From NCBI RefSeq assembly GCF_000013445.1, contig NC_007796.1:372001-436000 (forward strand): a stretch of 64,000 nucleotides of DNA, written 5' to 3'. How positions within the stretch are numbered: the first letter of the stretch is position 1; every line of letters begins with the position of its first letter. Both the position numbers and the translations under genes were made by a program. Under the pieces are notes generated by a model that searched no databases, had not been told where the DNA came from, and worked only from the letters and a program-made list of their open reading frames with translations. This stretch comes from Methanospirillum hungatei JF-1 (GTDB lineage: Archaea > Halobacteriota > Methanomicrobia > Methanomicrobiales > Methanospirillaceae). Shown here in pieces: positions 40,885 to 56,306 of the stretch.

Positions 40885-41490
40885 TTAGAACTGAACATGG
40901 TAGTTTAAAAACTCACTCCAATTCCAAAGATGATCAGTAATACTTTCTAACATTGCTGGAGACTTGTGACTACTTTTTACTTCGATAAAATTATGCACAA
41001 ATTGAAAGATATTTAGCGCTGAAATGAATCTATTGAGTTTTTTTGAAAAAGAGGCAGTTTTCCTTCCAAAACGGCTCAATCGTTGTCTGATTTTATTATT
41101 GTAGCCCTCAATGACTGAGGTAGAGATTGCTTTACTATCTGGATTTCCCATAATTTTCTCTCGAATGACATAAACAAGTTTATTCTTCTCTTTTACTTTG
41201 ATCACCTGACCATAATCCAAGCATGGCTCACAATATAATTCAGGTAAACAAATGCTATATTGGACGTTTCCATCAGTAAAAATCGATATTTTGTTTTCTG
41301 GCGTTGGAAGTTCCATTCGGTTAAAAAATCGAACTAACATATCTGCACAAGTATCAATATTTCTTTTTCCAGATTCAAATGCTAAAAATAATCCAGAATC
41401 CCTTTTAAAACAAGTATAGGACCAACAATCACCTAATTCTTCAGAGTCAGTTGTTAGGAGATTCTTGTTTTTTTTTGAACAAACTCCCAA
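40885..41490 (-). CDS. IS1-like transposase, catalytic part (orfB frame)
   Basis: Open for 201 codons, it carries the DDE-type core (FTDGNVQYS and the region around SVIEGYNNKIRQRLSRFGRK). It lies in the -1 frame relative to orfA and overlaps its end at a run of nine A (minus strand) followed by C. A -1 ribosomal slip there would give the fused protein reading WEFVQKKNKNLL, as in bacterial IS1. Its own ATG at 41490 is within orfA and is probably not used. Confidence 0.88.
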   Translation of the reverse strand: MGVCSKKNKNLLTTDSEELGDCWSYTCFKRDSGLFLAFESGKRNIDTCADMLVRFFNRMELPTPENKISIFTDGNVQYSICLPELYCEPCLDYGQVIKVKEKNKLVYVIREKIMGNPDSKAISTSVIEGYNNKIRQRLSRFGRKTASFSKKLNRFISALNIFQFVHNFIEVKSSHKSPAMLESITDHLWNWSEFLNYHVQF

Positions 41491-41870
41491 ATTTCATCCA
41501 TCTCACAATCCCCCGCGGAAATGTCATGAATAAAATAATCGTTGAGTTTTTCAGCATGTTCACCGATTAAGTGATAATATCGAGATATAGTGTCGCGATG
41601 GTGTCCGGTAACTCGAGATACTCCTCGAATTGAAGTTTTTTCAGTCGAGTGTTTCGCAATTATGAGAACAGCAGTTCGTGGTAAACGAGAATCATACAGA
41701 GGAGTATTTTTAGTTTCAATAAAAAAACGTCGACAGTGATGGCAATAGTACTGTTGATTGCCTGCAGAATTATGCCCATTTTTAGTAATATTCTTTCCAT
41801 CTTCAATTTGAAAATAAGTACAATCCGGATTTTGACACGTAATCAATATAGGACCACGTTTTCCAACCAT
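41454..41870 (-). CDS. IS1-like transposase, N-terminal part (orfA)
   Basis: 138 residues. An N-terminal zinc-binding pair (CQNPDC and CHHCRRFF, about 12-45) is followed by a helix-turn-helix (TSIRGVSRVTGHHRDTISRYYHLI). It then reads CEMDEIWEFVQKK, where the first catalytic acid residues begin, and terminates just after the slippery A-run. Alone it would act as an InsA-like repressor; fused to orfB it is the transposase. Confidence 0.9.
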   Translation of the reverse strand: MVGKRGPILITCQNPDCTYFQIEDGKNITKNGHNSAGNQQYYCHHCRRFFIETKNTPLYDSRLPRTAVLIIAKHSTEKTSIRGVSRVTGHHRDTISRYYHLIGEHAEKLNDYFIHDISAGDCEMDEIWEFVQKKTRIS

Positions 41871-42872: not shown

Positions 42873-43093
42873 ATGAAGGTTGGGAGTTATGGATCTGATT
42901 TTGGAAAAATAAAAGACTTGTCAGCATCGGCAGAACTGTCTGTGTATCAGTATATTCATGCAATTAAATCAATTCGCCCGAAATTAAATAATCTATAGAG
43001 AGAACATTCATTTTAAGATGCTTGTTCTGCATGAGTAGGCTTCCGGGAAACCTGTCAGATGATATCATCCAGGCTAGAGAAGAACGGGTATGA
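42873..43093 (+). pseudogene. Broken antitoxin, copy of 49047-49262
   Basis: It begins ATGAAGGTT like the intact antitoxin at 49047 and shares the CTGTCTGTGTATCAGTATAT core and the GGAAACCTGTCAGATGA end. A small insertion near the start and a TAG in the middle break it. It directly precedes the first VapC-like toxin copy, so the whole antitoxin-toxin pair was duplicated. Confidence 0.75.
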
Positions 43094-43556
43094 ATCTGTT
43101 TTTGATCCCTCTGCCCTCGTAAAGATCTTCCATAATGAGAAAGGGTCAGAGAGAACTCGTGAATTAATTTTAAATGCACAAAATAATCTCTATATACTGG
43201 ATATTGCGCAAATTGAATATTATAGTGCAATATTTCGACGATATCGTAATCATGAGTTGTCAAAAAAATCATTGAATATCGCTATATCTGGATTTGAAAA
43301 AGAAATATCTCATTATTATATTGAGCCGACAACACCGCTGGTGATTAAAGAAGCCCAAAACCTCATATTTTCATATGGAGAAAAATCTGACCTTCGAACC
43401 CTTGATTCAATTCATCTGGCAGCATTTTCATTAATTTCAAGTGAAGATTGGATCTTTGTTTGTTGTGACTCTATACTGTCATGTGTTGCAGAAGAAAGTC
43501 AATTTACCGTTTTAAATCCAATACAACAAGAAAATATAGGTTTTAACCATGAGTGA
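43059..43556 (+). CDS. VapC-like PIN toxin, degenerating copy
   Basis: 165 codons, closely similar to the toxin at 49249-49692. PIN acids are retained (VFDPSALVKIF, Glu in AQIEYYSAIF, and DSIHLAAFSL near the C-terminus). The start codon used by the intact copy (ATG ACC GAG) is changed to AAG here, so translation would need the ATG at 43059, adding a few residues. The C-terminus is longer (SQFTVLNPIQQENIGFNHE) because of a local partial duplication. With its antitoxin broken, an active toxin would be dangerous, so it is probably unexpressed or inactive. Confidence 0.75.
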   Translation: MISSRLEKNGYESVFDPSALVKIFHNEKGSERTRELILNAQNNLYILDIAQIEYYSAIFRRYRNHELSKKSLNIAISGFEKEISHYYIEPTTPLVIKEAQNLIFSYGEKSDLRTLDSIHLAAFSLISSEDWIFVCCDSILSCVAEESQFTVLNPIQQENIGFNHE

Positions 43557-43614
43557 ATATCCATTTACCGTACCGTTTATCTGAATAATCCAGAAAAGTA
43601 TTCCAAATCAATTC

Positions 43615-43974
43615 ATGAAGATCATATCAATCGTCGGTGCCAGGCCAGAGTTTATTAAATGTGCCCCGGTATCCAGGGAGCTTCGAAAAAACCACCGGGA
43701 GGTATTAGTCCATACCGGACAGCATTATGACCCGGAGATGTCTGACATCCTCTTCGAGGAACTTGAGATACCAAAACCTGATTACCACCTCTGGGTTGGT
43801 TCAGGACCACATGGGAAGCAGACCGGTGAATGCCTCGCGAAGATCGAAGAAGTCCTGATCAAGGAGCAGCCGGTTCTTGTCCTAGTGTATGGTGATACCA
43901 ACTCGACTCTGGCCGGAGGGCTGGCTGTAGTAAAATTCAACATTCCGGTTGTCCATCTGGAGACTGACTTCTGA
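43615..43974 (+). pseudogene. wecB fragment 1 (UDP-GlcNAc 2-epimerase N-terminus)
   Basis: 119 codons matching the first third of the intact wecB at 49723: [35 protein letters not shown] and [16 protein letters not shown]. The frame fails at HLETDF, where the intact gene reads HVEAGLRSFDR; short matching DNA continues to about 44000. It is nearly identical to fragment 2 at 47007 and less so to the intact gene. It follows a VapC-like gene exactly as the intact copy does. Confidence 0.85.
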
Positions 43975-44079
43975 TTTTTGACAGGACTACTGGAAGAGGA
44001 GGTATATTTGGTGAGCACTACTCTTATGATACCATCTTACAATACATAAGATAATAAATTATTTAGAACCGGTGAGTTT

Positions 44080-44328
44080 GTGAAAACAATAATTATTCCA
44101 ATCCCAATAACATATCTGCCTGAGGGCTATTACCTTGTAACGAGTGATGTACTCCCTGGATTAATTGCACAAGGTAATAATATTGATGAAACTATTGAGA
44201 TAGCTGAAGATGTGGCACGAAACCTGATTTCCATTGAATTAGAAGAGAACAGAAGAGAGGCCCTCGAAACAGATCCGGAATCAACGTATCTTTTAGATAT
44301 TCATGTCCCAATTCCTGTATCTGTATGA
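44080..44328 (+). CDS. HicB-like antitoxin
   Basis: 82 residues from a GTG start with GGTGAG upstream. Its fold pattern (YLPEGYYLVTSDVLPGLIAQGNNIDETIEIAEDVARNLI) is the degraded RNase-H-like HicB domain. Its stop overlaps the start of a HicA gene by four bases (ATGA). It normally binds and neutralises HicA and may repress the operon. Confidence 0.8.
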   Translation: MKTIIIPIPITYLPEGYYLVTSDVLPGLIAQGNNIDETIEIAEDVARNLISIELEENRREALETDPESTYLLDIHVPIPVSV

Positions 44329-44480
44329 CACGAATACCACGGTATCAATCAAAAGAGGTGGTCCGTAAGGTGATGAAAGTGGGATATATCTTAAAACGAC
44401 ATGGAAAAGGGTCTCATGATATTTATTATACTCCTAACCGGGCTCGCTCTAGACCCCTAGAGGAGAGATATGAAAATTGA
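44325..44480 (+). pseudogene. Truncated HicA toxin
   Basis: 51 codons: MTRIPRYQSKEVVRKVMKVGYILKRHGKGSHDIYYTPNR has the dsRBD-like HicA start and the catalytic His of GSHDIYY. The C-terminal strand and helix of HicA are missing; the last residues (SRPLEERYEN) do not fit, pointing to a frameshift. The intact HicA at 47792-48013 is 73 residues. Probably inactive. Confidence 0.7.
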
Positions 44481-44640
44481 TTTTTCATGTATAATTTAGA
44501 TGAAAGTAGAATCACAAAATAAAACCAATGGGTATCGCAATGATCCCAATGATAAAAACCTGTACATCGTATCATGAAAAAAAGATATCTGTTCAGATTG
44601 GAATAGAGTATTATGGTGAAAGCGGAAGTTTCACAAAATA

Positions 44641-44802
44641 ATTAGATATGTGATAAAATAACCGGATTTTCAGATGGAACAGAAGTCGAAGTCTCAAGAA
44701 ACCCACATAAACCAATTCGGGATTTGTTCCATGGCTGCCTTCAAATTGATGATATTCAGGTTATCGAGGAGATTGCTGAATCGGATGAATTGTCATATTA
44801 TT
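44641..44802 (+). pseudogene. Possible antitoxin remnant
   Basis: An open stretch without a start codon reads KITGFSDGTEVEVSRNPHKPIRDLFHGCLQ and ends IAESDELSYYW. It has the look of an antitoxin C-terminus but I cannot name the family. The rest of 44481-44834 shows no gene. Confidence 0.35.
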
Positions 44803-44990
44803 GGTGATATTCCGGATAATTTCATGTTATTGATATGTCTGATTTTTCCCTGAAATTCACTTCCTTTTCAGGGAAAAGGAGACGAGTATTACTAAAGTTT
44901 TTTGAAAAAAGGTTAAAGGTGCAGGTTACGACAGATCCTAATTGGATACAAAGTAAAAAATACTATGCATTTCTAAATCTTAATTTAAAC

Positions 44991-45185
44991 ATGACTATTA
45001 TTTCTGAACAACAGACAGATTTCAATCTCATTAATTTGAATCGTCTTGCTCATATAATCAAATCACTTGATGAAAAGGAGATTGAGACTTTGGAAATTCT
45101 CCTTGATAATGATTCATTTGAGATCATCCAGCAGTCTTCAAAGGAATATTCTCAACAAAAAGGAATTCCTATTGATCAGTGGTGA
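44991..45185 (+). CDS. Antitoxin of a RelE/ParE-type pair
   Basis: The frame is open from 44835, but ATG 44991 gives a normal 64-residue antitoxin: MTIISEQQTDFNLINLNRLAHIIKSLDEKEIETLEILLDND. Acidic helices are followed by a SSKEYSQQKGIPIDQW tail. Its stop is one base before the toxin ATG. The upstream part of the frame (SDFSLKFTSFSGKRRR) looks like fortuitous open sequence. The family is assigned by position. Confidence 0.65.
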   Translation: MTIISEQQTDFNLINLNRLAHIIKSLDEKEIETLEILLDNDSFEIIQQSSKEYSQQKGIPIDQW

Positions 45186-45186
45186 A

Positions 45187-45477
45187 ATGGAGCCCTATGG
45201 TATCTCGATGGCTCCTTCGGCATTGAAAAATTATAAGAAATTTCCAGAAAAGTTAAGGGAAAAGATTAAATCGGAAGCTCTTCACATTGCTCGTAATCCA
45301 TATATCTATGAGGAACTGTCTGAACCTCTCAAAGGTATCAGATCATACCATTTCACATTTAATTCAACACAATATCGGATAGCATATCAGATTAATGAGT
45401 CTTCAAGGGAGATTGAGATTCTACTGGTAAAAACCAGAGAAAATTTTTATGACAAACTATTTCGAACATTCAGATAA
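45187..45477 (+). CDS. RelE/ParE-superfamily toxin
   Basis: Starting at ATG 45187 (the longer frame from 45067 overlaps the antitoxin) the 96-residue protein reads MEPYGISMAPSALKNYKKFPEKLREKI, then SEPLKGIRSYHFTFNSTQYRIAYQI and LLVKTRENFYDKLFRTFR. These are the RelE beta-sheet and basic C-terminal helix. It would cleave mRNA at the ribosome or inhibit gyrase, depending on subfamily. Its end overlaps the start of a broken wecC (45449), so the toxin directly abuts a glycan-gene fragment. Confidence 0.85.
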   Translation: MEPYGISMAPSALKNYKKFPEKLREKIKSEALHIARNPYIYEELSEPLKGIRSYHFTFNSTQYRIAYQINESSREIEILLVKTRENFYDKLFRTFR

Positions 45478-46239
45478 AAATAAAAAACCACTCACCCCAT
45501 TTACCATCTGCGTTGTCGGTCTTGGCTATATCGGAACTCCCCTGGCTTGAGCCTTTGCAGAGCACCTTCCGACCATGGGCTTTGACATCGACCGGAGGAA
45601 GACTGAGCTGCTCACGGCATCAGGCTCGAATAATCTGGCCACGACTGATCCGAAGGCAATCCGGGAGGCGGATATCATCATGATCTGTGTCCCGACGTCG
45701 GTGATGAAAGCGAAAGATCCGGATCTTGGCCCGGTCATGGGTGCTGCACGAACGGTGGGGCAGAACCTGAAAGAGGGAGCAATCGTTGTTATGGAGTCCA
45801 CGGTCTATCCTGGTGTGACTGAAGAGGTCGTCGTGCCAATCCTTGAGCAGGAGTTCGGGAAGAAATGCGGAGAGGATTTCTTTGTCGGGTACTCCCCGGA
45901 GCGGATCAACCCGAATGACGATGAGCATACTCTGGAGCGAACGACAAAGATCGTATCCGGCATGGATGAAAAGACTACAGATAAGAACTGCCAGGTATAC
46001 GGATTGGTGACGACAGTGTACCGTGCTCCTGTTATCCGGACCGCTGAAGCGGCCAAGTTCATCGAGAATATCCAGCGTGACCTGAACATTGTTCTTGTCA
46101 ACGAGTTATCCCTGATATTCTCCCGCATGGGTCTTGATACGACGGCGGTCCTAGAGGCTGCCGGGACAAAATGGAACTTTCACCCGTACCGGCCGGGACT
46201 TTTCGGCGGGCATTGTATCGCGGTTGTTCTCTGTTCATG
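45449..46239 (+). pseudogene. wecC 5' fragment 1 (UDP-ManNAc dehydrogenase)
   Basis: From ATG 45449 the frame gives the NAD-binding start TICVVGLGYIGTPLA, then a TGA at 45548. After it come [40 protein letters not shown] and [13 protein letters not shown]. The usual linker in the first domain is shortened ([14 protein letters not shown]), indicating an internal deletion. The frame leaves the family right after GGHCI, before the catalytic region is complete. The enzyme would oxidise UDP-ManNAc to the uronate. The UDP-binding C-terminal part lies separately at 47308-47730. Confidence 0.87.
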
Positions 46240-46435
46240 ATTATTGTAAGAAAGTTGAAAGATACAAGAAATTAAATCACTCATCTGGAAATTACCTTTA
46301 TTTTATACGTTTACACATATGATATGTAATCCATTGTGTGAATAGGTGTGTGGATGGCAACAAACCTTGCAGTCGACGATAATCTCATCTCCGAAGCCCT
46401 GGTAATTGGTGGATGTAACACCAAGAAAGCAGCAG
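45866..46435 (+). repeat. 570-bp direct repeat, copy A (wecC end plus vapB start)
   Basis: It aligns without gaps to 48296-48865, a constant offset of 2430 bases, with twelve differences by eye. It covers the end of the wecC fragment, the 115-bp spacer and the first 27 codons of the VapB-like antitoxin. Copy B keeps the more family-like residues (for example RAPDIRT and KVIENIQ), so copy A has drifted. Confidence 0.88.
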
Positions 46436-46554
46436 TTACTGAAGCTCTCATAGAATACATCCAAAGAAGAAAACAGATCCAGATTACATCATTGTTCGGA
46501 ACAATTGATTATGATTCAGATTATGATTATAAGAAAAATAGGTCTAGAACGTGA
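46354..46554 (+). CDS. VapB-like antitoxin
   Basis: 66 residues: [41 protein letters not shown] is a ribbon-helix-helix antitoxin of the VapB type ([13 protein letters not shown] signature). An acidic tail follows ([14 protein letters not shown]) that would block the PIN active site. GGTG lies upstream. It overlaps the VapC gene by four bases (GTGA). It looks intact, unlike its partial copy at 48784. Confidence 0.88.
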
Positions 46555-47198
46555 AAATTCTTGTAGATACATCTGTCTGGTCATTAGCCCTGAGAAGGTC
46601 TGGTGTTAGAACGCCAGAAGAAGCAAATCTCGTTCATTCATTGATTGAACTAATAGATGAAACCCGAATACTGATGATTGGACCAATCAGACAGGAATTA
46701 TTATCTGGAATCTCTTCAAATAAACAATTCGAAGAATTGAAAGAAAAACTCCAGGCTTTTCGAGATCTTCCTCTTATAAGCTCTGATTATGAGAAGGCAG
46801 CAGAGTGCTATAATATTTGTCGTTCTGCAGGGATCCAGGGGTCACACATCGATTTTCTCATCTGTGCACTAGCAGAAAGAGAGAATGCACCCATTTTTAC
46901 GACAGATAATGACTTCTTTCATTATGCAAAACATCTTGATATCACTCTTTTTTCACCAAAAAAAATAAATTCGCAGTTTAACATCCAAAAAAGAGTTACT
47001 TTTTCCATGAAAATCATATCAATCGTCGGTGCCAGGCCAGAGTTTATTAAATGTGCCCCGGTATCCAGGGAGCTTCGAAAAAACCACCGGGAGGTATTAG
47101 TCCATACCGGACAGCATTATGACCCGGAGATGTCTGACATCTTCTTCGAGGAACTTGAGATACCAAAACCAGATTACCATCTCGGGGTTGGTTCATGA
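46551..47198 (+). CDS. VapC PIN toxin fused in frame to a wecB fragment
   Basis: The GTG-started frame has a complete PIN domain: [16 protein letters not shown] (Asp6), Glu in [11 protein letters not shown], Asp in [13 protein letters not shown] and Asp in [12 protein letters not shown], about 140 residues. There is no stop after it. The frame runs through [19 protein letters not shown] into [13 protein letters not shown], the wecB start at 47007, and ends at TGA 47198. The 215-residue hybrid may still be an active toxin, since the extension follows the domain. The antitoxin gene overlaps its start. Confidence 0.82.
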
Positions 47199-47308
47199 CC
47201 ACATGGGAAGCAGACCGGTGAATGCCTCGCGAAGATCGAAGAAGTCCTGATCAAGGAGCAGCCGGTTCTTGTCCTAGTGTATGGTGATACCAACTCGACT
47301 CTGGCCGG
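47007..47308 (+). pseudogene. wecB fragment 2
   Basis: It begins [20 protein letters not shown] and is nearly identical in DNA to fragment 1 at 43615. A TGA at 47196-47198 (Gly codon in the intact gene) interrupts it. Matching sequence continues to CTGGCCGG near 47308, where it joins wecC 3' sequence at a short shared GCCGGT/GCAGGT-like stretch. About 100 codons of the 356 remain. Confidence 0.87.
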
Positions 47309-47730
47309 TCGATTAATGACTCGATGGCGGGTCATGTGGCACGGATGGCTATCATGGGCCTGAATGATGTCGGAAAGGTGATCCGGGGGTCGAATGTCCT
47401 GATTATGGGGCATCTACAAGGAGGATGTGCCTAACATTCGGGAGTCGCCGGTCTTTGAGATCGTCAGGGAGGGAATTGATAGTGTATACGATTGAAGAGT
47501 ATGGGTATAACCCTCTGCTTTCCGATGAGATGATTGAGCAGTTCGGGGTGAAAGGGTTACCCGGGCTGGACCTGAAGATGGATGCGGTGATAATGGCGGT
47601 GGGTCACCGACAATTCCGGGAGATGGGGTCAGTGAGATTCGTGGTCTGATGAATGACCATCCGGTGCTTGTGGATATAATGGATTGTGGGCCAGGGAGAA
47701 GCGGAAGGGAGAGGGATTTGGTATGGGAAA
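47308..47730 (+). pseudogene. wecC 3' fragment (UDP-binding domain)
   Basis: Across frameshifts it reads [33 protein letters not shown], then TYKEDVPNIRESPVFEIV, EEYGYNPLLSDEMIEQFGVKG and MDAVIMAVGHRQFREM. This is the end of a UDP-ManNAc dehydrogenase. It is the only copy of this part in the window. Its counterpart 5' part is 1.1 kb upstream, separated by a VapBC module and a wecB piece. It is non-functional. Confidence 0.85.
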
Positions 47731-47791
47731 TTTTGAATTAATCTGCATAAACCAAAAATATCTCAACTCAAATATGGAGGGAAAACAAAGA

Positions 47792-48013
47792 TTATAGATA
47801 TTTTGTTATTTGCTCAATGCTCAAATCTGCTTCTTTCATGATCTGATGAATGATACCCGGGCGTAATTCCCTATGCTGGGGGATAACAATTCTGAAGATT
47901 GAACCCTGTTTTTTCATGATGCAATGACTACCGGTTTGTCTTACCGGGGTCCATCCAAATCGGGTTAGAATTTTTACCATTTCGAATCCAGAAATCACTG
48001 GTAGACGTGTCAT
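47792..48013 (-). CDS. HicA-type mRNA interferase
   Basis: 73 residues: [62 protein letters not shown] is a complete HicA with the catalytic His in GSHCIM and the PGIIHQI helix. It is encoded on the minus strand after HicB, overlapping it by four bases. It is an intact pair, unlike the truncated one at 44080-44480. Confidence 0.92.
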   Translation of the reverse strand: MTRLPVISGFEMVKILTRFGWTPVRQTGSHCIMKKQGSIFRIVIPQHRELRPGIIHQIMKEADLSIEQITKYL

Positions 48014-48228
48014 ATAGATACTTCTACAATTTGAGATTGGCTATTGGTGGGTGATATGGTTGATTCCTCAGATAATACATCCATATATAACTGAATTGCA
48101 TCTTTGACATTTTCAATTACTTCATCAAATGAGTCACCCTGCGTATGACATCCAGGTAGAGCAGGGACATGAGCGATATAGCCCCCATCAGGCTCTTGGA
48201 TTAATTCAACTTTAAATTTTAAAGTCAT
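48010..48228 (-). CDS. HicB-type antitoxin
   Basis: 72 residues: [42 protein letters not shown] is the conserved HicB partial RNase-H fold. The C-terminus ([14 protein letters not shown]) lacks an obvious DNA-binding domain. The first gene of the pair; it would bind HicA and control its activity. This is the only minus-strand toxin-antitoxin pair in the mosaic. Confidence 0.92.
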
Positions 48229-48280
48229 ATTATTACGTGTTAGGCATGAATTTATATCAAATTTATCTCATTTTTCATCA

Positions 48281-48670
48281 ATGATATGGATGGTCTGCGG
48301 AAAGGATTTCTTTGTCGGGTACTCCCCGGAGCGGATCAACCCGAATGACGATGAGCATACTCTGGAGCGAACGACAAAGATCGTATCCGGCATGGATGAA
48401 AAGACTACAGATACGAACTGCCAGGTATACGGATTGGTGACGACAGTGTACCGTGCTCCTGATATCAGGACCGCTGAAGCGGCCAAGGTCATCGAGAATA
48501 TCCAGCGTGACCTGAACATTGCTCTTGTCAACGAGTTATCCCTGATATTCTCCCGCATGGGTCTTGATACGACGGCGGTCCTAGAGGCTGCCGGGACAAA
48601 ATGGAACGTTCACCCGTACCGGCCCGGACTTGTAGGCGGGCATTGTATCGCGGTTGTTCTCTGTTCATGA
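48281..48670 (+). pseudogene. wecC fragment 2 (middle part only)
   Basis: About 125 codons of UDP-ManNAc dehydrogenase, lacking the NAD-binding start and the UDP-binding end. It keeps the less diverged sequence ([28 protein letters not shown]). It leaves the family immediately after GGHCI at the same base as fragment 1, so the break existed before the duplication. Confidence 0.85.
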
Positions 48671-48865
48671 TTATTGTAAGAAAGTTGAAAGATACAAGAA
48701 ATTAAATCACTCATCTGGAAATTACCTTTATTTTATACGTTTACACATATGATATGTAATCCATTGTGTGAAAAGGTGTGCGGATGGCAACAAACCTTGC
48801 AGTCGACGATAATCTCATCTCCGAAGCCCTGGTAATTGGTGGATGTAACACCAAGAAAGCAGCAG
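48296..48865 (+). repeat. 570-bp direct repeat, copy B
   Basis: The partner of 45866-46435. It starts abruptly at TGCGG within the wecC frame and ends at GCAGCAG within vapB, where a deletion joins it to vapC sequence. The wecC part (48296-48670) reads [20 protein letters not shown] through [13 protein letters not shown] with no other wecC sequence before it. Confidence 0.88.
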
Positions 48866-48972
48866 AGTTCTATAACATTTGTCCATCTGCAGGAACCCTT
48901 GGTTCAACCATCGATTTTCTCATCTGTGCATTAGCAGAAAGAGAGAATGAAATAAATATTACCCCCAGATAG
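48784..48972 (+). pseudogene. Deleted vapB-vapC fusion
   Basis: It starts [28 protein letters not shown] like the intact VapB, then joins vapC codons ([27 protein letters not shown]) and ends soon after. Compared with 46354-47000, 368 bases are missing between two copies of GCAGCAG (46429-46435 and 46797-46803). Neither protein is functional. Confidence 0.85.
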
Positions 48973-49046
48973 TGACAGATTTACCTATAAGAATCATATT
49001 ATCTGTGAATAAGATAATTAAAATAAATTATCAAGAGGGAGCCATC

Positions 49047-49262
49047 ATGAAGGTTAAGGATCTGGTTTTGGATGAAATTAAAGACATGTCAGTTTCAGAA
49101 TATCTGTCTGTGTATCAGTATATTCATGCGATTAAAGCAATTCGCCCGAAACCAAGTAATAAAAAAAGGGAACATGCATTTGAAGAAGTCTGTTCTGCTC
49201 TGAGTAGCCTTACGGGAAACCTGTCAGATGACATTATCCTGGCTAGAGATGACCGAGTGTGA
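49047..49262 (+). CDS. Antitoxin paired with the downstream VapC-like toxin
   Basis: The frame opens at 48972, but ATG 49047 has GAGGGAG eight bases upstream and is preferred; the protein has 71 residues: MKVKDLVLDEIKDMSVSEYLSVYQYIHAIKAIRPKPSNKKR. The C-terminal half (FEEVCSALSSLTGNLSDDIILARDDRV) ends with the acidic stretch often seen in PIN-toxin antitoxins (DDI..AR.ER). It overlaps the toxin by 14 bases. A broken copy lies at 42873. Confidence 0.8.
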   Translation: MKVKDLVLDEIKDMSVSEYLSVYQYIHAIKAIRPKPSNKKREHAFEEVCSALSSLTGNLSDDIILARDDRV

Positions 49263-49692
49263 ATCTGTTTTTGACACCTCTGCCCTCGTAAAAATCTTCC
49301 ATAATGAGGAAGGGTCAGAGAGAACTCGTGAATTAATTTTAAATGCACAAAATAATCTCTATATACTGGATATTGCGCAAATTGAATACTTTAGTGCAAT
49401 ATTTCGACGATATCGTAATCATGAGTTGTCAAAAAAATCATTAAATATAGCCATATCAGGATTTGAAAAAGAAATGTCTCATTATTGTATTGAGCCAACA
49501 ACACCCCTGGTGATTAAAGAAGCCCAAAAACTCATATTTTCGTATGGAGATAAATTTGGCCTTCGAACCCTTGATTCACTTCATCTGGCAGCATTTTCAT
49601 TGATTTCAAATGATGATTGGATTTTTGTTTGTTGTGATTCTATACTTTCATGTGTTGCAGAAGAATATCCATTTACCGTACCGTTAATCTGA
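49249..49692 (+). CDS. VapC-like PIN toxin
   Basis: 147 residues from ATG 49249 (MTECESVFDTSALVKIFHNEEGS). PIN acids are in VFDTSALVKIF, Glu in AQIEYFSAIFRRY, and Asp in LRTLDSLHLAAF and DSILSC. It is intact and coupled to the antitoxin. It ends 30 bases before the intact wecB, the same arrangement found at the broken copy 43059-43615. Confidence 0.87.
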   Translation: MTECESVFDTSALVKIFHNEEGSERTRELILNAQNNLYILDIAQIEYFSAIFRRYRNHELSKKSLNIAISGFEKEMSHYCIEPTTPLVIKEAQKLIFSYGDKFGLRTLDSLHLAAFSLISNDDWIFVCCDSILSCVAEEYPFTVPLI

Positions 49693-49722
49693 ATAATCCA
49701 GAAAAGTATTCCAAATCAATTC

Positions 49723-50793
49723 ATGAAGATCATATCAATCGTCGGTGCCAGACCCCAGTTCATCAAATGTGCCTCGGTATCCAGGGAGCTTCGAAAAACC
49801 CACCAGGAAGTTTTGATCCATACCGGACAGCATTACGACCCGGAGATGTCTGACGTCTTCTTCGAGGAACTTGAGATCCCAAAACCTGATTATCATCTCG
49901 GGGTTGGATCAGGACCACATGGGAAGCAGACCGGGGAATGTCTCGCGAAGATCGAAGAGGTCCTGATCAAGGAGCAGCCGGATCTTGTCCTCGTGTATGG
50001 TGATACCAACTCGACCCTTGCCGGAGGGCTGGCTGCGGCAAAACTCCATATTCCGGTTGCCCACGTGGAGGCAGGGCTTCGAAGTTTTGATAGGACAATG
50101 CCGGAAGAGATCAACCGGGTCCTGGTCGATCATCTGTCTGACCTGCTCTTCTGTCCCACCCAGACTGCAGTGGATAATCTTCGAAGCGAAGGGATAACAA
50201 AGGGGGTGTTCCTGACCGGCGATGTGATGGTAGATGCTCTTGAATATAATAAGGAGATCGCAAGGGAACGATCAAAGATTCTGGAAAAGTATTCGCTCAC
50301 TCCCGGCAAGTATCTGATCCTGACTGTTCACCGTCCGTCAAATACTGATAACCCTGATCACATGGAACATATTATCGGGGCCATTGGTGATTGTGGTTTG
50401 CTGACGTTATTTCCTGTTCATCCCCGGACCAGGAAAAATCTTATCTCGTTTGAGTTGTGGGATAGCATGCCGGGGAATATCATACCCTGTGTTCCTCTTG
50501 GATACCTTGATATGCTTGCGGCAATGGGTTCAGCCGGGAAGATCCTGACCGATTCAGGCGGAGTTCAGAAAGAGGCGTACCTGCTCTCGGTCCCGTGTAT
50601 TACTTTGCGTGAGAATACCGAGTGGGTGGAGACAGTAGAGGCAGGGTGGAATGTATTGGTTGGGGCTGATAGGGAGAAGATTGGAGCGATGGTAAGAGAG
50701 TTTCTGCCTTCCGGTGGGCATCCGGACTTGTTTGGGAGTGGTGCATCGGGGAGTATTGGTGAACTGGTCGGGGAGTATATGAATGGGGTTTGA
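49723..50793 (+). CDS. wecB: UDP-N-acetylglucosamine 2-epimerase (non-hydrolysing), intact
   Basis: 356 residues with the GT-B-like epimerase fold. The start [32 protein letters not shown] and [41 protein letters not shown] lead into the C-terminal LTDSGGVQKEAYLLSVPCITLRENTEWVET, which binds UDP. It makes UDP-ManNAc, a precursor for surface glycans and ManNAcA. Its natural partner wecC is present only as fragments here. It overlaps the next gene by 11 bases and is the first gene of the glycan operon. Its base composition is like the host core, unlike the AT-rich genes after 51.8 kb. Confidence 0.95.
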   Translation: MKIISIVGARPQFIKCASVSRELRKTHQEVLIHTGQHYDPEMSDVFFEELEIPKPDYHLGVGSGPHGKQTGECLAKIEEVLIKEQPDLVLVYGDTNSTLAGGLAAAKLHIPVAHVEAGLRSFDRTMPEEINRVLVDHLSDLLFCPTQTAVDNLRSEGITKGVFLTGDVMVDALEYNKEIARERSKILEKYSLTPGKYLILTVHRPSNTDNPDHMEHIIGAIGDCGLLTLFPVHPRTRKNLISFELWDSMPGNIIPCVPLGYLDMLAAMGSAGKILTDSGGVQKEAYLLSVPCITLRENTEWVETVEAGWNVLVGADREKIGAMVREFLPSGGHPDLFGSGASGSIGELVGEYMNGV

Positions 50794-54546: not shown

Positions 54547-56306
54547 GAGGGTGTTGCACCAATGATCAATATCATGCAGGATCACAAATGATCGATCTCT
54601 ACCCCTTAAGCTATCAACCAAAATAGACTAATTGATGTATGAACCTGCATGTATCAATTCCCACTTTACATACTGTGTTTGCAAAAATATAGGAAAAACC
54701 TGAACCTCTTGACGGTTTTATAATATTCGTAGCAAATTCTTTAATTTTAACTATACCCTCAAATCTGATAAGTTTTTTTATATTATGCACTAATGCAGCT
54801 AAAAAGAATTCTCCCTCGCAATTCTCTTTCCCTTTTTGAGAGAAACTCCTAAACCTCATATTATGTTTCATATTACCAAAAACTGGTTCGACCATGTATT
54901 TTCGTTTTCGATATAACTCTCTACCAGTGGGGGATTTCACACGTACTTCCATAACTCGTTTACAAATTTCCTGAGTTGTTGCTTGTTTCTCTCTGTTCAT
55001 AAAAGATTGCCAAACAAACGTCCCGATACTTTGCAATTCCGGAAATGTGATTATTTCTCCCATACAAATCGCCCGACATATCATTTCCATTCGTGAGATA
55101 TACCCATCATTATCTGAATATTCTGGAATTTTTCTTTCTTTAGAAGGAGGGATGATGAGTTGAATGCCATAATCCAATTCTGCTAAAGAATTCGGGTATG
55201 AGAAATAACCTGCATCAGATAGTAGTATATTAGGCGAAATTGATGGATGAATACCCGTAAAAAGGTCTTCGAGTTCATTTAGCATAGGTATTAATAATTT
55301 TTTATCGTTTTGCTCATCTGATATCATTGCAGCGAGGATAAATTGATTTTCAGAAACGATAATCTGCCCATTATACCCTTGAATCCAGCCATTGGTGGTT
55401 GACATTATCTGACTTTCAGGATCAGTGAGATTTACTTTTGAATCTGAAGATGGCTCTTTTTTAGGCTCTAAAGGCTTTCTACCTCGTTTCTTTTTACCCG
55501 ATTCTAATTCTTCTTTTTCGCGGTCCAGAATCTTTTCTTCTTGTTTTTTAGATTCGATATCATGTCGTTCAATTAATTTCTCTTTAGCCCGATTAAGAAC
55601 TTCCTTTCGTTTTTCTTTTGTTGAAAGATGCTCAGGTAGTCGGTTAATCTCCATATCCTGAATATTTATATCATCGTTTTCTAACTCATCAATTTCCTGT
55701 GATTCATCAAAAAGCCGACCTAGCTCTGCTTCAAGGTATTTTAATTTTTTATTGGCTGATAAAGAGGCATTACAGCCAAATTTTGATCCATCGAGGGCTA
55801 GGACACCGATTCTTGCTATCCCGGATTCTACGATAATTTGAGATAATTGTTTAAAAAGGGATTTGATTTCTTTTGAATTATTCTTCTTGAAACGATAGAT
55901 CGTTGTATGGTCAGGTGTAAGATTATTGGCGACGATCCGATATCCAATATCATAATGGCAGCACATCTCAATTTTTCTGCTAGATTTTTCTCCACGAATC
56001 ATTGAATAAATTATTATTCCAAGCATTGAACGAGGATCAAAAAAGGCAGAACCGCGACCATCGTCACGATATTTATTAATAAATGGACTAATATCGAGAA
56101 TCGAAAGAATTTCTAATATGCCATAAGTAATATCATTTTCAGATAGCCAGTCCATCGCATTGACAGGGAGTAAAAATTGTTGTTCATTACCATATCCTCT
56201 AATCATGTTATAGCGATGAGACATATAATATATTGATCTTAATAATATATATAATTAAGCTTTAATAATTTATATTAAGCTTTTTTTGTGTTTGTGCAAC
56301 AGCCTC
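54547..56306 (-). mobile_element. IS1182-like element, copy 2 (1760 bp)
   Basis: It has the same ends as copy 1 and the same length. Flanking direct repeats are AATT at 54543-54546 and 56307-56310. It is in the same orientation as copy 1, so the two form 1.76-kb direct repeats 31.7 kb apart. Confidence 0.93.
54614..56224 (-). CDS. IS1182-family transposase, copy 2
   Basis: 536 residues, differing from copy 1 at one residue near the C-terminus (FIHQLVYFG). DUF772-like start, DDE residues and the Lys/Glu-rich insertion are as in copy 1. The only other nucleotide difference I see is a silent one near 55934. Intact and presumably active. Confidence 0.95.
   Translation of the reverse strand: MSHRYNMIRGYGNEQQFLLPVNAMDWLSENDITYGILEILSILDISPFINKYRDDGRGSAFFDPRSMLGIIIYSMIRGEKSSRKIEMCCHYDIGYRIVANNLTPDHTTIYRFKKNNSKEIKSLFKQLSQIIVESGIARIGVLALDGSKFGCNASLSANKKLKYLEAELGRLFDESQEIDELENDDINIQDMEINRLPEHLSTKEKRKEVLNRAKEKLIERHDIESKKQEEKILDREKEELESGKKKRGRKPLEPKKEPSSDSKVNLTDPESQIMSTTNGWIQGYNGQIIVSENQFILAAMISDEQNDKKLLIPMLNELEDLFTGIHPSISPNILLSDAGYFSYPNSLAELDYGIQLIIPPSKERKIPEYSDNDGYISRMEMICRAICMGEIITFPELQSIGTFVWQSFMNREKQATTQEICKRVMEVRVKSPTGRELYRKRKYMVEPVFGNMKHNMRFRSFSQKGKENCEGEFFLAALVHNIKKLIRFEGIVKIKEFATNIIKPSRGSGFSYIFANTVCKVGIDTCRFIHQLVYFG

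Follow-up and report, generated by a model that had tools for sequence, protein, structure and literature searches.

Toxin–antitoxin modules lie between direct repeats of gene pieces at a wec locus and elsewhere in the genome of Methanospirillum hungatei JF-1

The stretch of DNA analysed here (the window) comprises 64,000 nucleotides, positions 372001–436000 of NC_007796.1, from Methanospirillum hungatei JF-1, whose genome assembly is one contig of 3,544,738 bases. At 42.9–50.8 kb it contains a mosaic of toxin–antitoxin (TA) modules interleaved with pieces of wecB and of a nucleotide-sugar dehydrogenase gene. Open reading frames (ORFs), assigned by Pfam and NCBIfam profile matches, confirm the TA/wec mosaic described in a first-pass annotation of this DNA, including its three wecB pieces, one complete, and the three dehydrogenase pieces that it had called wecC. 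That annotation counted at least six TA loci or remnants; the TA assignments hold, and the count becomes about eight, with an AF2212-like antitoxin gene remnant at 44517–44819 having been missed. The features of the mosaic are listed below in window coordinates, where G000 denotes the analysed genome and codes from G002 to G011 other genomes of the genus; the comparison set comprised 11 such genomes, with G002, G005, G006 and G009 being draft assemblies.

42886–43062, plus strand: first vapB-A antitoxin copy, broken (repeated directly, at 89%, from 49053 on; tblastn matches in two different frames)
43059–43556, plus strand: VapC-A toxin (PIN), copy 1 (PF01850, 25.9 bits, cut-off 23.6)
43615–43998, plus strand: wecB 5′ fragment 1, about codons 1–128 (PF02350; 89% identical to the full gene)
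44080–44328, plus strand: HicB1-like putative antitoxin (no Pfam match; precedes hicA; relatives in G004, G005 and G011)
44325–44480, plus strand: HicA1 toxin, 3′ end lost (PF07927 positions 1–31 of 58, below cut-off)
44517–44819, plus strand: AF2212-like antitoxin remnant, PIN partner absent here (86% identical to contig C221 of G005, 622–922)
44835–45185, plus strand: putative antitoxin 5′ of a ParE-like toxin (assigned by position only; no Pfam or NCBIfam match)
45187–45477, plus strand: ParE/RelE-like toxin (PF15781, 62 bits in the covering ORF)
45449–46240, plus strand: TviB-like dehydrogenase piece a (PF03721/PF00984; NF011729, TIGR03026)
46348–46554, plus strand: VapB-B antitoxin (PF09957, 71 bits)
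46551–47006, plus strand: VapC-B toxin (PIN), frame continuing into wecB fragment 2 (PF01850; NF047959, 93.5 bits, cut-off 80)
47007–47310, plus strand: wecB 5′ fragment 2 (98% identical to fragment 1, 91% to the full gene)
47311–47727, plus strand: dehydrogenase 3′ piece fused to wecB fragment 2 (82–83% identical to G005 and G002)
47792–48013, minus strand: HicA2 toxin (PF07927, 58.7 bits)
48010–48228, minus strand: HicB2 antitoxin (PF15919, 37.4 bits)
48281–48670, plus strand: dehydrogenase piece b, about residues 129–250 (PF00984; 98% identical to piece a over the common repeat)
48778–48972, plus strand: fused vapB-B/vapC-B remnant with internal deletion (PF09957 positions 1–27 of 47; repeats from self-comparison)
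49047–49262, plus strand: VapB-A putative antitoxin, copy 2, intact frame (5′ of VapC-A; relatives in G004 and G006; no NCBIfam match)
49228–49692, plus strand: VapC-A toxin (PIN), copy 2 (PF01850, 31.6 bits)
49723–50793, plus strand: complete wecB, UDP-GlcNAc 2-epimerase (TIGR00236, 327 bits, cut-off 210)

Judged by reading frame, four TA modules appear intact: the putative antitoxin with its ParE-like toxin (44835–45477), vapBC-B (46348–47006), hicBA2 (47792–48228, minus strand) and vapBC-A copy 2 (49047–49692). Four others are broken: vapB-A copy 1, which lies beside an open vapC; hicA1, which lacks its 3′ end; the AF2212-like remnant without its toxin, whose related protein in G005 gives a weak PF01954 match below cut-off (E 0.009); and a vapB-B/vapC-B pair fused through an internal deletion. 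Three VapC toxins, at 43059, 46551 and 49228, score above the Pfam cut-off for the PIN family and are predicted RNases.

The boundaries between gene pieces are mostly occupied by these modules. A comparison of the mosaic with itself, which the first-pass annotation had proposed, showed that direct repeats link the whole region. The longest pairs are 42886–43510 with 49053–49679 (627 bp, 89%), 45866–46435 with 48296–48865 (570 bp, 97.9%), 43555–43998 with 49663–50109 (447 bp, 89%) and 43614–43916 with 47006–47308 (303 bp, 98%), with further direct repeats of 303 bp (91%) and 96 bp (86%).

The dehydrogenase pieces are nearer TviB than WecC, and the wecC label was rejected (piece a, TviB E 1.8e-63 vs WecC E 4.8e-28). 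Against the WecC equivalog cut-off of 459 bits, the truncated piece a scores 97.9 and an intact relative in G010 185.5; TviB is the best equivalog match yet also stays below its cut-off of 592 (214.8 and 368 bits), whereas both exceed the cut-off of 189.8 for the nucleotide sugar dehydrogenase subfamily TIGR03026 (209 and 376 bits). Piece a carries an in-frame TGA at 45548 and ends after a GHCI motif, and a tblastn search with the intact G010 protein covers residues 271–378 at 47311–47727 in three frames. A search of the analysed genome found no intact copy of this dehydrogenase lineage; open frames of 419–433 codons, at 70–72% identity, are present in G003, G010 (two) and G011. The visible outcome at the locus is therefore gene loss.

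Genes 3′ of the mosaic encode ATP-grasp, PHP, methyltransferase, transposase, polysaccharide-biosynthesis and glycosyltransferase domains, a neighbourhood that fits a glycan locus. The earlier proposal that a surface-glycan locus is being remodelled thus keeps its glycan-type setting, and what can be seen of the remodelling is the loss of the dehydrogenase. A toxin gene immediately precedes, in the same orientation, wecB and the dehydrogenase, as well as wzt in G006, an arrangement that would suit TA-wec operons working as units, with the toxin controlling synthesis of the sugar coat. We consider this very unlikely, as what follows the toxin genes here is mostly gene fragments, and toxin families are combined with target genes in varying ways.

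The arrangement seen in the mosaic recurs at other places in the analysed genome. The PIN family has 29 matches in the genome, 27 of them above cut-off and one in a 657-codon frame. Regions of 12–20 kb around each match (the match at 411752 lying less than 1 kb from a region edge) were compared with 1140 positions in 40 random 20-kb control regions, a place being scored as flanked when copies of a direct repeat (≥100 bp, ≥78% identity) lay on both sides of it, each no more than 1.5 kb away. Seven of the 29 PIN places are flanked, compared with seven of the 1140 control positions, an excess of about 40-fold (Fisher p 8e-9). Leaving out the four matches in or just outside the mosaic gives 6/25 (p 8e-8), and a looser 60-bp limit gives 8/29 against 27/1140. 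Fisher's test is too sharp here, because control positions overlap and the seven flanked ones fall in 3 of the 40 regions; with the bootstrapped 99% upper control rate of 1.7%, 7/29 still gives p 4e-7, and merging PIN matches less than 10 kb apart gives 7/21 loci (p 4e-8). The four control repeat pairs that pass the same thresholds look by eye, from their ORFs, like gene-family or low-complexity repeats with no TA module between them.

Besides the mosaic, the flanked places are the PIN genes at 671062, 1349237, 1749147, 1885878, 2074486 and 2161098. Repeat lengths at the seven range from 199 to 1247 bp, and the inserts at the six places outside the mosaic measure 737–1100 bp. In each of these six inserts a toxin gene neighbours a small ORF placed as an antitoxin gene would be; in two of the six the toxin frame is broken. 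The PIN gene at 2158083 fell 44 bases outside the distance limit. Near 2850080–2850500, a ParE-type toxin gene preceded by a small ORF lies between 280–290-bp repeats of 77.7% identity and stands outside these counts.

At 2074486 the repeat consists of the end of hdrA and the whole of flpD (1003 bp, 95%), in the order hdrA, flpD, AF2212-like/PIN pair, hdrA 3′ fragment, flpD. The MvhD/VhuD-like flpD is thus present twice in full around a TA module, at about 2071500–2075880 of the genome, and once in the relatives searched. In all nine relatives searched (of 11), the hdrA-flpD site gave one long single-copy match, none covering the TA genes; the match in G002 is split over two contigs and extends 39 bases beyond the repeat end, and three relatives have short extra matches elsewhere in the query. 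At 1349237 the order is atpD, MazE-like/PIN pair, decayed atpD fragment, in what looks like the same insertion as one in G004. At 2161098, G004 has one gene copy and short matches to the TA module.

Ten of the 12 genomes of the genus, the analysed one included, match some part of the mosaic. In G004, vapBC-A and wecB are followed by the same downstream genes as in G000, and a second locus, on the minus strand, reads wecB fragment, hicBA1, vapB-A, full wecB. Contig C221 of G005 carries a dehydrogenase piece, an AF2212-like/PIN pair, a second dehydrogenase piece and vapB-B, then, on the minus strand, a UPF0175 gene with an unassigned partner, and finally a dehydrogenase 3′ piece; G009 has the hicB2–dehydrogenase junction in common with G000. 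Several junctions are thus common to relatives, indicating that some are conserved while gene order has been re-assorted. The suggestion that the order might be the same in other strains, which would have spoken against repeated recombination, is not borne out in the genomes compared, and the view of TA modules as recombination seams gains support from their boundary positions, the re-assorted junctions and the genome-wide excess of repeats flanking PIN genes. An assembly artefact, for which repeats of up to about 600 bp would give an opening, is scarcely credible given the single contig and the recurrence of several junctions in other assemblies.

Contig C30 of G006 (JAAYCY010000043.1, 1–9007) bears several wzt-like ABC-transporter fragments interspersed with PIN genes and, as far as its sequence tells, is the same kind of mosaic built on another glycan gene. 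Relatives of the VapC-A module are present in G004 and G006; a VapC-A search of 150 genomes of the order (E 1e-15) matched only G000, in a sample that probably omitted these two. Separately, an 885-base stretch of G005 (C112, 1344–2229), covering an antitoxin-like gene beside PIN 2158083, is 100% identical to G000, which would point to recent transfer or contamination given that two core genes differ by 17–19%.

The divergence of the copies bears on their origin. A dead copy born by duplication is expected to differ from the living copy at about the neutral ratio. Silent to replacement differences are 21:16 and 19:7 for wecB fragments 1 and 2 (98% alike and so non-independent), 10:2 for hdrA′, 19:19 for atpD′ and 12:5 for the two dehydrogenase copies of G005, a silent excess in each of these (p 4e-4 to 8e-8). 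This suggests that the copies in question diverged while functional, and simple in-place duplication is not supported for all copies. The wecB fragments are probably imported alleles or once-functional copies rather than fresh duplicates, and hdrA′ could itself remain functional.

Between G000 and G005, two housekeeping genes show dS 1.10–1.25 and the dehydrogenase pieces dS 0.79–1.11 with dN/dS 0.03–0.09, suggesting that the dehydrogenase was probably working for most of that time and was cut more recently. In both genomes it is cut at the same position just past the GHCI motif and followed by the same vapB. The vapB-B beside the cut has pS 0.09, compared with 0.52 for the dehydrogenase (Fisher p about 7e-8, rounded counts). 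As TA genes at insertions seemingly common to G000 and G004 have pS 0.16–0.35 (atpD itself 0.29), the lower divergence of TA modules than of their flanks is weak evidence of recent transfer and falls short of proof.

The recurrent cut, with the same vapB beside flanking copies that differ at dS 0.8–1.1, is what a site-specific mobile unit would leave if TA modules integrated at fixed dehydrogenase sites through a recombinase acting in trans, and hicB2 likewise joins the dehydrogenase at one and the same position in G000 and G009. We nevertheless think such a unit improbable: repeat ends examined by eye have no common terminal motif, targets and repeat lengths vary, and an abrupt shift in identity at the junction would equally be produced by gene conversion with a resident copy.

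We regard it as about evenly balanced whether small TA modules arrive repeatedly, each being left between direct copies of part of its target gene. Each arrival would place the module between two direct copies of the gene hit or adjoined, so that a single arrival would give the order gene fragment–TA–gene and serial arrivals fragment–TA–fragment–TA–gene. One copy would keep its function, as in wecB, or disappear, as for the dehydrogenase, and the spare copy would decay. The copies may have come with TA-bearing DNA imported from related strains through recombination in a common gene, or may date from a period with two working copies; either is favoured over simple in-place duplication by the mainly silent differences. 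Addiction to the antitoxin may select against clean removal through the repeats, leaving the locus to decay piecemeal. In that way the modules would have the stabilising role that the first-pass annotation offered as an alternative to that of seams.

Several observations weigh against repeated arrival. The control positions were random and match neither island context nor repeat content, which is the chief weakness of the flanking test; 22 of the 29 PIN matches show no repeat within its limits, and the repeats at 1749147 and 671062 are mutually related and may not be target genes. The clean empty site lies at hdrA-flpD rather than at wec, and none was found for 2161098 in the 11 relatives searched. 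The nearest relative on the two core genes compared, G002, retains a small remnant of hdrA beyond flpD and has no TA module. Dehydrogenase pieces a and b differ neutrally (2.5 silent, 7.5 replacement), with no silent excess; that of the flpD copies (3:2) is non-significant (p 0.07), and low silent divergence of TA genes also appears at insertions apparently shared by G000 and G004. Flanked PIN loci are sparse in other species, at 1/8 tested in G004 (a second locus having a 93-bp repeat) and 0/7 in G010, and both G004 repeat cases look like insertions in common with G000. An equal flanking frequency across species is accordingly rejected; these counts derive from 10 PIN matches in G004 and 8 in G010, after exclusion of one long protein per genome and of the wec locus of G004.

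Variable islands collect glycan loci as well as TA modules, and it is quite possible, if not probable, that the mosaic arose by ordinary repeat-driven shuffling in a horizontal-transfer hotspot (tandem duplication, deletion, gene conversion), with TA modules as passengers. Glycan and transposase genes lie nearby, and the differences between pieces a and b are those expected of a simple recent duplicate; islands of TA genes are known (PMC2701414), and the vapBC loci of Sulfolobus islandicus LAL14/1 are reported, with one exception, to be flanked by degenerate insertion sequences (IS; PMC3718332). Shuffling of a variable island accounts less readily for TA modules between repeats of genes for core energy enzymes, as at hdrA-flpD and atpD, or for a repeat association about 40-fold above control.

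Around the mosaic, a DDE transposase gene lies inside the glycan locus (window 54614–56224). An IS1-type transposase gene pair, one ORF of which is barely above the IS1 Pfam cut-off, occurs in two copies, at window 40885–41870 (minus strand) and genome 435859–436841 (plus strand). The two pairs encode identical proteins and lie inverted, about 22 kb apart, bracketing the mosaic and the glycan genes; they could permit inversion of the segment between them. PIN genes are found within 2 kb of 4/5 nucleotide-sugar gene loci, compared with 0/20000 random draws, and of 3/4 such loci without the mosaic (5/20000 draws), the loci having been chosen after the data were seen and their ends being approximate. 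Elsewhere, genome positions 1566490–1569900 hold a long tandem array whose diverged repeats recur about every 61 bp.

The pattern bears on how chromosomal TA modules might change site without a transposase. With rather more doubt than for repeated arrival, type II TA modules of the genus may be mobile units without a transposase that enter with, or copy, long stretches of their targets, and whose addiction keeps the duplications; they would then both generate and maintain duplicated genes, core methanogenesis genes included. Should addiction preserve duplications, TA modules would shape gene copy number and be more than passengers. A genome with several repeat-bordered TA modules offers a testing ground, as empty sites, repeat lengths and copy ages can be compared across strains.

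Among known systems, three show related arrangements. A ParE/ParD-like TA pair of Microcystis aeruginosa lies between two identical 152-bp direct repeats (PMC7935541) and is likewise fenced by direct repeats; that is one locus, its repeats not described as target-gene copies in the text available, whereas here there are several loci, some with gene targets. TA islands or cassettes pack different TA classes closely together, as here, and preferential incorporation or transferred cassettes have been suggested (PMC2701414); in the mosaic, unlike those islands as portrayed there, TA modules alternate with repeated host-gene fragments. In S. islandicus LAL14/1, degenerate IS copies reportedly flank every vapBC locus except one (PMC3718332), another archaeal case in which repeated flanks of vapBC are taken as a sign of mobility; unlike the flanks given there, those at wec, hdrA-flpD and atpD, at least, are host genes and not IS.

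The closest known pattern appears to be the insertion with long target duplication of restriction-modification systems, reportedly described by Nobusato (2000) and Furuta (2010). We found no report of TA insertion of this kind in an archaeon in the titles and abstracts of the open PMC literature under the terms used. Restriction-modification systems are reported to insert with long, variable target duplications (PMC3874152 and PMC3031569). In the mosaic and at the six other PIN loci a module lies between direct target copies, with duplications of at least 100 bp, although membership in this class is not firm because in-place duplication is not demonstrated for most copies. As in the restriction-modification case, a small addiction module sits between long, variable direct copies of its target, and no transposase was noticed in the inserts read in this genome. 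Two differences stand out: the modules here are type II TA pairs of an archaeal host, and several copy pairs differ mainly at silent sites and were perhaps never identical at birth. By analogy, the pattern would work like insertion with long target duplication, now with TA modules in an archaeon.

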